A stretch of DNA of 10,484 nt. It comes from an uncultured Lachnospiraceae bacterium. Lineage in GTDB: Bacteria > Bacillota > Clostridia > Lachnospirales > Lachnospiraceae. How positions within the stretch are numbered: position 1 is the stretch's first letter; each line of letters opens with the position of its first letter. Positions 7,856 through 8,931 of the stretch are shown here, piece after piece. A program made the position numbers and the translations under genes. Location: the NCBI GenBank assembly GCA_947653315.1, contig CANTGP010000077.1, forward strand, positions 1 through 10,484, written 5' to 3'. The notes beneath the pieces were generated by a model. It did not search any database. It was given only the letters and a program-made list of their open reading frames with translations, and was not told where the DNA came from.

Positions 7856-8437
7856 ATGGCGGATAAATTTTGCAGGCAGTGCGGCGCTCCGCTGGCAGAG
7901 GGAGCCAGGTTTTGCAAGTATTGCATGACACCGGCGGGAGCGGAAAGTAAGGAATCCGGGAGCGGTACAATGGAAAGCGGGGCGGAACCGGGAGGAACGG
8001 TCACGGGAAAAGTGGACCTTAGGAAAGCGGGGCATGGAAGCAGCGCCGGTTTTGGCGCCGGAAACGCTGTCCGGGGGAATGCGGCGGACGGTATGGGAGG
8101 AAGCGGCGGAACCGCCGGTATGCAGCGGAATCCTTATAAAATATACGGGGTGCTGGCATACTTCAGCATAGGGGTGCTGGTGCCGATTCTTTTTAAGATG
8201 GACGTGCGGTTTGTGCGGTTCCATGTGAATCAGGGGTTGGTGCTGTTCCTTGCGGAAGCGCTGCTGTCTTTGGTATACGGGTTTGTGGGAGGCATACCGA
8301 TTTTGGCGATGGTGGTTTCAATTTCCAGATTGTTTTGTGTCGCCTTTATGGTGCTTGGGATGGTGTCGGCGGTACGTGGGTCGGAAAAGCCGCTGCCGCT
8401 TGTCGGGAAGATTCATTTGGTAAGGGAAAGTTCATAA
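7856..8437 (+). CDS. Zinc-ribbon membrane protein (DUF4870/Tic20-like)
   Basis: A 193-residue protein. The N-terminal zinc ribbon has C6-x2-C9-x10-C20-x2-C23 (FCRQCG, FCKYC). Residues about 30-90 form a Gly/Ser/Ala-rich, probably disordered linker. The C-terminal half has about three membrane segments (roughly 97-113, 126-145, 149-173). The stretch RFVRFHVNQGLVLF resembles the FHxxQ motif of DUF4870/Tic20-like small membrane proteins, and PLPLVGKIHLV is the common tail of that group. The ATG at 7856 follows GGGAAGG. The function is unknown; the cytoplasmic ribbon suggests protein or metal binding at the membrane. The gene lies between a terminator upstream and a strong hairpin terminator downstream, so it is probably a single-gene unit. 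Confidence 0.78.
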   Translation: MADKFCRQCGAPLAEGARFCKYCMTPAGAESKESGSGTMESGAEPGGTVTGKVDLRKAGHGSSAGFGAGNAVRGNAADGMGGSGGTAGMQRNPYKIYGVLAYFSIGVLVPILFKMDVRFVRFHVNQGLVLFLAEALLSLVYGFVGGIPILAMVVSISRLFCVAFMVLGMVSAVRGSEKPLPLVGKIHLVRESS

Positions 8438-8448
8438 GGGAAAGTTAG

Positions 8449-8477
8449 TCATAACCCTTCAGGGTACTTCATACAAT
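8449..8477 (+). promoter_or_regulatory. Sigma-E-type promoter of spoIIID
   Basis: TCATAAC (8449-8455, five of seven to the sigma-E -35 TCATATT), then a 14-base spacer, then CATACAAT (8470-8477), an exact -10 match. Transcription would begin around 8484. This agrees with the known sigma-E control of spoIIID in Bacillus subtilis. Confidence 0.75.
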
Positions 8478-8507
8478 GTAAAAAAGTATTCTGAGGGGTT
8501 TTCTTTT
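8453..8507 (+). terminator. 17-bp hairpin terminator of the zinc-ribbon gene, overlapping the spoIIID promoter
   Basis: AACCCTTCAGGGTACTT (8453-8469) pairs along its whole length with AAGTATTCTGAGGGGTT (8484-8500), 14 Watson-Crick and three G-T pairs, around a 14-base loop. A T-rich tract (TTCTTTT, 8501-8507) follows. The loop contains the sigma-E -10 element, and the 3' arm contains the spoIIID ribosome binding site. Confidence 0.85.
8493..8498 (+). promoter_or_regulatory. spoIIID ribosome binding site within the hairpin 3' arm
   Basis: GAGGGG lies seven bases before the TTG start at 8506. It would be base-paired in any RNA that also contains 8453-8469. Confidence 0.75.
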
Positions 8508-8769
8508 GAAGGACTACATCGAAGAAAGAGCAATTGATATTGCCAATTATATCATTGAGAATAATGCCACGGTAAGGCAAACGGCGAAGCAGTTCGGGAT
8601 TTCGAAGTCCACGGTACATAAGGATGTGACGGACAGACTGATGCAGATTAATCCGGCATTGGCAAAGGAAGCGAGGAAGGTTCTGGACGTAAATAAATCC
8701 GAACGGCATATCAGGGGCGGGCTCGCCACGAGGGAAAAATATTTACACCAGCATGAAACGGGTATGTAG
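8506..8769 (+). CDS. spoIIID: Stage III sporulation transcriptional regulator SpoIIID
   Basis: SpoIIID is the mother-cell DNA-binding protein that both represses and activates sigma-E-dependent genes and leads to sigma-K production. The 87-residue product has the family length. It begins KDYIEERAIDIANYI, has a helix-turn-helix at about 23-45 with the near-invariant GISKSTVHKD, then INPALA, and a basic C-terminal DNA contact region KSERHIRGGLATREKY. I recall close similarity to the B. subtilis protein over the whole length. The start is TTG at 8506, the only position that gives the full conserved N-terminus with a ribosome binding site (GAGGGG). A sigma-E-type promoter lies directly upstream, inside the terminator hairpin of the preceding gene. 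No T-tract terminator follows the stop codon; several stem-loops do. guaA, next downstream, has its own promoter. Confidence 0.97.
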   Translation: MKDYIEERAIDIANYIIENNATVRQTAKQFGISKSTVHKDVTDRLMQINPALAKEARKVLDVNKSERHIRGGLATREKYLHQHETGM

Positions 8770-8902: not shown

Positions 8903-8931
8903 TTGACAAGGGATAAAGGAGCCGATATAAT
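8903..8931 (+). promoter_or_regulatory. Consensus sigma-A promoter of guaA
   Basis: TTGACA (8903-8908), a 17-base spacer and TATAAT (8926-8931) match the vegetative consensus exactly. The start would be near 8938, giving a leader of about 40 bases, too short for a purine riboswitch; none is seen. Confidence 0.93.

Follow-up and report, generated by a model that had tools for sequence, protein, structure and literature searches.

A hairpin enclosing the spoIIID promoter in Lachnospiraceae as a probable guard against translation of read-through RNA

Sporulation needs mother-cell regulators that remain silent until sigma-E becomes active, and in the forespore as well, and leaky read-through is a constant threat in genomes whose neighbouring genes change. 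The window analyzed here (10,484 nucleotides of contig CANTGP010000077.1, from an uncultured Lachnospiraceae bacterium) raises this issue directly, as spoIIID lies close behind a zinc-ribbon gene called co-oriented with it, 68 nt ahead of the spoIIID start. What could keep SpoIIID from being made on RNA that runs on from that neighbour? The features needed to address the question are the following.

7856–8437, + strand: upstream co-oriented gene, an ORF with a zinc-ribbon match (PF13240, 27.1 bits)
8449–8455, + strand: presumed sigma-E −35, TCATAAC, weak, 14 nt before the −10
8453–8469, + strand: 5′ arm (anti-ribosome-site arm), from the fold, pair counts, and swap and shuffle tests
8470–8477, + strand: sigma-E-type −10, CATACAAT, from the sequence
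8484, + strand: predicted transcription start, inside the hairpin, placed 7 nt after the −10
8484–8500, + strand: 3′ arm, also leader of the presumed native mRNA, from the fold
8493–8498, + strand: Shine-Dalgarno GAGGGG of spoIIID, pairing with the 5′ arm in read-through RNA, from the sequence and opening costs
8499–8507, + strand: T-run TTTTCTTTT, from the stem end into the TTG start, a possible terminator tail, from the sequence
8506–8769, + strand: spoIIID coding sequence with a TTG start (TIGR02844, 134.3 bits for a cut-off of 111.5; PF12116, 145.6 bits)

The hairpin and the promoter before spoIIID

Folding of 8440–8515 paired 8453–8469 with 8484–8500 in a stem of 17 bp, including three G-U pairs, with a minimum free energy of −24.5 kcal/mol; shuffles averaged −13.2 (z −3.9), and 1 in 200 was as good. 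The loop of 14 nt contains CATACAAT and the GAGGGG in the 3′ arm stands 7 nt from the TTG start, so that the hairpin described in the first-pass annotation, with the −10 in its loop and the ribosome binding site in its 3′ arm, is seen both in the letters and in the fold. No Rfam family reached the gathering score within the window. The predicted cost of opening the Shine-Dalgarno core is 12.3 kcal/mol if the RNA reads through and 1.6 kcal/mol if it begins at the predicted start, a difference of 10.8 kcal/mol, and the window's own arm closed the ribosome site better than 40 of 40 dinucleotide shuffles and 40 of 40 arms swapped in from other loci.

The promoter was named by reference to what we take to be the sigma-E consensus. 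The −10 is of the CATACAAT type, this octamer being the commonest −10 among the loci compared below (49 of 177), and it is preceded at the proper spacing by a weak −35; we infer the start site and the sigma-E dependence of spoIIID from the −10 sequence alone. The annotation had the −35 overlapping the 5′ arm, and the overlap indeed covers the first three bases of the arm, but the match to the consensus is weak. Its ATA is invariant or almost so in 36 aligned loci. A perfect TTGACA-17-TATAAT promoter was also observed at 8903–8931 of the window, ahead of guaA.

In the mechanism that we propose, RNA reading through from the upstream gene would contain both arms and fold into the 17-bp hairpin, so that SpoIIID would be poorly translated from it; such RNA may also terminate at the hairpin and T-run. 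A sigma-E transcript begun at about 8484 would lack the 5′ arm, leaving GAGGGG open and SpoIIID translated. We infer both the existence of the read-through RNA and the translational block at spoIIID.

Arm and ribosome binding site across spoIIID loci

SpoIIID was present in 14 of the 16 genomes of the genus, in 215 of 294 sampled from the order and in 187 of 219 sampled from the phylum; 80 relatives, mostly Lachnospiraceae, were kept out of 585 confirmed stretches. The gene was located in 186 of 187 loci, eight of which were left out (L003, a duplicate; L015 and L016, 3′ halves; L025, L027, L055 and L128, too short; L097, without a start), as was L156, without a −10, and the remaining 177 loci formed 129 non-redundant clusters. 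For each of the 177 loci we computed what it costs to open the Shine-Dalgarno core, both in read-through RNA and in a transcript starting 7 nt beyond the −10. The median over the 129 clusters was 8.4 kcal/mol for the former and 3.2 kcal/mol for the latter, predicted native RNA; the read-through RNA was more than 3 kcal/mol costlier to open in 77 clusters, and the other 52 had no difference above this value.

For the 129 clusters, we either shuffled the 45 nt ahead of the −10 or exchanged them between loci. Mean opening cost was 9.3 kcal/mol with the own arm, 6.2 with swapped arms, 5.6 with shuffled arms and 3.3 with none; 2000 random assignments of swapped arms had a standard deviation of 0.24 and a highest value of 6.97 kcal/mol. 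Cluster by cluster, the own arm beat at least 95% of shuffles in 63 of the 129 and at least 95% of swaps in 45. As the own arm closes the site better than a swapped, a shuffled or no arm, arm and ribosome site appear to be matched locus by locus. The pairs were also counted in 36 of 53 distinct sequences, in a comparison that leans towards structure because hairpins in another register and those judged unlike the window's layout were left out by judgement: 81.5% of cells were paired (shuffle mean 79.1; 36–59% with a slid partner), and 20 cells had changed on both sides, a number above that of every slid register and above a shuffle mean of 11.4, with none of 500 shuffles as high. Compensatory changes in the two arms are what the first-pass annotation proposed to look for by alignment. 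It had also counted loss of pairing in close relatives against its reading, and here the evidence points both ways: pairs at the ribosome site are lost in L005, from the same genus, in L041 and in L068, and are kept in many more. In L005 three central and two outer pairs are gone, though its neighbour is called co-oriented, and many relatives are without the hairpin. In all 56 hairpin clusters the Shine-Dalgarno pairs with a partner located upstream of the −10. This count gives no support, since the clusters were picked by what the sequence ahead of the −10 contributes, which makes the result largely one of construction.

A CATACAATGTAAAAA-like block is conserved upstream of spoIIID, chiefly in the window's family, and the arm stands just before it in many loci, its letters varying and its match to the ribosome site being kept. 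Two layouts were distinguished by eye: in one the −10 lies inside the loop, as in the window, and in the other (e.g. L046, L100 and L118) the arm ends ...CCCTG right at CATACATT, the −10 being part of the stem. In L121 the arm is placed still further upstream. Five loci (L075, L085, L092, L094 and L099) have, by eye, a second small hairpin between a GGGGG ribosome site and ATG, for example GCGTTC...GAACGC, with letters that differ among loci. It is as if this second hairpin would bring a distant ribosome site beside the start codon, much as in T4 genes 38 and 25 (PMC3014915).

Some further observations concern the gene and its start. TTG is the usual spoIIID start (137 of 177 loci, the others being 27 ATG and 13 GTG), perhaps because it continues the T-run or holds translation low. 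The sequence TGTAAAAACAAGT, which we take to resemble the SpoIIID binding box, occurs at the presumed transcription start, just after the −10, in L074, L081 and L120, where it is a possible site of self-repression by SpoIIID; the window itself is without it. In two genomes spoIIID is in two pieces, 4.8 kb apart in G014 (contig 88, 5521–5646 and 10452–10598; loci L019 and L016) and 3.8 kb apart in G015 (contig 7, 67933–68046 and 71850–71987; L017 and L015). The 3′ piece directly follows the end of an ORF encoding a serine recombinase (about 500 aa; Resolvase, Recombinase and zinc-ribbon Pfam domains), so these genomes probably carry a skin-like element within spoIIID. The promoter hairpin is present in both split-gene loci (L017 and L019). 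Among the 215 genomes of the order with a SpoIIID match, the best E-value was weaker than 1e-21 in 39, of which 30 had two or more matches, suggesting from the two cases examined that split spoIIID genes may be widespread.

Upstream neighbours and other sporulation genes

The upstream ORFs of 172 loci fell into 137 similarity groups under a crude longest-ORF rule, which mis-called the window's own neighbour. The ORFs next to spoIIID in the window's own genus are similar, in one genome or another, to the DHHW, dGTPase or exonuclease gene of the window. Since neighbours change between genomes while the hairpin persists in many, the hairpin appears to go with spoIIID. Orientation was called by a codon-usage classifier (cross-validated accuracy 0.95) and compared over the 109 of 129 clusters with a confident neighbour, a clear hairpin being defined by an excess of more than 3 kcal/mol over shuffled arms. 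Of the 78 co-oriented clusters 47 had a clear hairpin, as did 8 of the 31 divergent ones (Fisher p 0.0014); the other 31 co-oriented clusters were without a clear excess. Permutation within SpoIIID clades gave p 0.0006–0.037 over five cuts, and the co-oriented member exceeded the divergent one in 20 of 31 pairs (Wilcoxon p 0.008), but in only 7 of the 13 closest pairs, those whose coding DNA is at least 78% identical. The bias, with more hairpins where the upstream gene runs towards spoIIID, fits insulation against read-through, and a terminator would predict it too. Outside the class, confident neighbour calls comprised 44 co-oriented and 2 divergent.

The layout is not peculiar to spoIIID. 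Taking as strong any arm with an excess above 4 kcal/mol over shuffled arms, we found strong arms before spoIIID in 44 of 76 clusters, mostly of the window's family with some from the order (clusters among L001–L127, minus five loci with an inserted second hairpin). Within the family they precede spoIVA in 23 of 31 cases, yabP in 11 of 30, spoIID in 8 of 20 and spoIIR in 9 of 22, and they are rare before spoIIIAA (3 of 30) and generic genes (8 of 144), all these counts for other genes being approximate because a rule decided the start codon of each control gene. The spoIVA and yabP loci were found by tblastn, yabP locus L336 was skipped and 20 of 30 spoIID loci were used; the generic controls were genes with their own upstream space from the same loci, 160 being sampled from 348 and 16 removed (15 of them spoIIID). 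Where the arm stands with respect to a start site was, in the control genes, assessed by eye on individual examples. Of the genes compared, spoIIIAA is sigma-E dependent and spoIIR is a sigma-F gene.

Upstream of spoIVA in Lachnospiraceae (L188–L217 and L306), promoter-enclosing hairpins are often stronger still and are followed by a T-rich stretch; L202, L203, L204 and L210 are striking cases in which a CATATA-type −10 is enclosed. At the forespore gene spoIIR, the 5′ arm is overlapped in L280, L282 and L292 by GGNAATACT, which we take to be a sigma-F-like −10. Among spoIIID loci from outside the class, 19 of 60 have the excess, L393 and L357 clearly so. This recurrence, at other sporulation genes and outside the class, suggests that the layout is either old or repeatedly invented. 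Scanning 10 whole genomes for the pattern CCCC...CATANNNT...AGGGG returned 77 matches against 48 for the backward control, and a CCTCC/GGAGG pattern 50 against 37; such scans are poor detectors, and strong cases must be few in any one genome. In genome G012, the seven matches to the first pattern include spoIIID, spoIVA and a yabP-like gene.

Competing explanations and known systems

Could the hairpin simply be the intrinsic terminator of the upstream gene, with promoter and ribosome site overlapping it for lack of space and any block of translation not being its purpose? Intrinsic terminators that overlap a downstream promoter are known, and they likewise have a stem and a T-run between two genes; unlike them, the stem here holds a ribosome site and the loop a −10. 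A 17-bp stem running into TTTTCTTTT, with the upstream stop just 15 nt before it, is what a terminator would look like, the spoIVA hairpins also end T-rich (mean of 4.96 T in 8 nt against 2.12 for generic genes), and the association with orientation would be expected. On the other hand, the 10 nt before the spoIIID start hold on average 5.73 T in clusters with the hairpin and 5.08 in those without it (3.27 for generic genes), hairpins with an excess of 8.7 and 4.0 in L109 and L126 have, by eye, no clean T-run, and the hairpin persists beside many different upstream genes. The terminator scanner did not list the window's hairpin, its maximum loop being 8 nt and the loop here 14 nt. With the stretch nearly as T-rich in loci lacking the hairpin, termination is only plausible: of the earlier claim that hairpin and T-tract end the zinc-ribbon transcript, the stem and the T-run stand, but T-richness does not track the hairpin. 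That the structure is only a terminator is therefore possible, though we doubt it.

Readings in which the repeat acts as DNA, or does not act at all, fit these data poorly. Inverted repeats around a promoter are typical of operators, and SpoIIID autoregulates in Bacillus subtilis, so a dimeric regulator or SpoIIID itself could bind the arms and control the promoter. A palindromic operator would have symmetric half-sites conserved in sequence; instead the arm letters change among relatives with complementarity kept, and G-U pairs are common, the stems of the 56 hairpin clusters holding 76 of them against 6 A-C mismatches, in a folding program that favours G-U. The + strand also folds slightly better (median −17.2 against −15.5, p 0.001), in only 73 of the 129 clusters. 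We hold an operator to be highly improbable. Chance complementarity deserves attention because C-rich sigma-E promoter spacers face G-rich clostridial ribosome sites, and part of the closing is indeed non-specific, swapped arms by themselves bringing the mean cost of opening up to 6.2 kcal/mol, compared with 3.3 when there is no arm. Yet own arms add another 3.1 kcal/mol, about 13 standard deviations over random assignment, the two-sided changes exceed those of the shuffles, and spoIIIAA, although sigma-E dependent, rarely has a strong arm, which makes chance a very unlikely explanation. With pairing kept despite changes of letters and own arms outperforming swapped ones, both readings were set aside. 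The usd–spoIIID coupling, of which Decatur 1997 is said to be the original source, suggests another possibility, namely that the hairpin adjusts how well native spoIIID mRNA is translated, or stands in for a usd-dependent control. According to PMC4474612, translation of B. subtilis spoIIID requires usd, a small upstream ORF, and a small hairpin at the sigG ribosome binding site cuts translation 2–4-fold according to PMC5942855. The coupling described for usd shares with the present case the gene and the translational level, but it needs an upstream ORF, whereas the window's predicted 22-nt leader (8484–8505) holds no ATG, GTG or TTG, which argues against a usd-like ORF if the predicted start is right. 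On the same condition native RNA would not include the sealing arm, and its Shine-Dalgarno would open at the low cost given above, and tuning of the native mRNA appears unlikely.

The reading that we prefer is that 8449–8508 is an insulated sporulation promoter, SpoIIID being made only when the mother-cell promoter fires. We consider this probable, as the earlier proposal that read-through RNA hides the ribosome site and promoter RNA frees it gains support from the locus-by-locus match of arm and site, the predicted opening costs and the orientation bias.

The hairpin principle itself is already known. At sigG of B. subtilis, the proposal for a hairpin of 20 or more pairs is that it keeps RNA reading through from the spoIIG operon from being translated, and the hairpin is described as unable to form in RNA from sigG's own sporulation promoter (PMC5942855). 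The spoIIID hairpin is likewise large, would block translation of read-through RNA and would be absent from own-promoter RNA; it differs from that account in gene, promoter and lineage (sigma-F/G promoter and Bacillus there; spoIIID, a sigma-E-type promoter and Lachnospiraceae here), in its loop-borne −10 and in its possible terminator tail. In phage T4, the ribosome site or start of gene e, soc, 49 and I-TevI is sequestered in a helix; for gene e, translation of the long early RNA is inhibited about 100-fold, and RNA from a nearby late promoter, without the 5′ strand, is translated well (PMC3014915). As in sigG and gene e, the long RNA of spoIIID has its ribosome site paired to an arm further upstream, here in a predicted fold backed by swap and shuffle controls, and the absence of the 5′ strand from own-promoter RNA is predicted from fold and start. 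The T4 case as described there is a phage timing switch without a terminator-like tail, unlike the bacterial developmental gene considered here. Our search of the open-access literature found no paper joining spoIIID or spoIVA with such a ribosome-site hairpin. It looks new that the principle serves genes presumed to depend on sigma-E, that the −10 is carried in the loop, and that the layout recurs at different genes and through the order, to some extent also outside it.

A broader generalization is offered tentatively, and we would put it at somewhat less than an even chance: promoter-gated translation may be widely used by compartment-specific sporulation genes of Bacillota, with a −10 of the sporulation sigma factor lying in a hairpin that closes the ribosome site of the same gene. 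Translation would then be licensed by the start site used as well as by promoter activity, and key regulators would be kept from the wrong cell, at spoIIID, spoIVA, yabP and some spoIID genes (sigma-E) and at spoIIR (sigma-F), and the hairpin would decay once the neighbour points elsewhere. If the insulated promoter is real, a module of about 60 bases, recognizable from sequence, would let a sporulation gene stand safely after almost any neighbour. It would also suggest a way for relatives lacking a usd-like ORF to hold SpoIIID in check, and would provide a simple insulated-promoter design for anaerobes.
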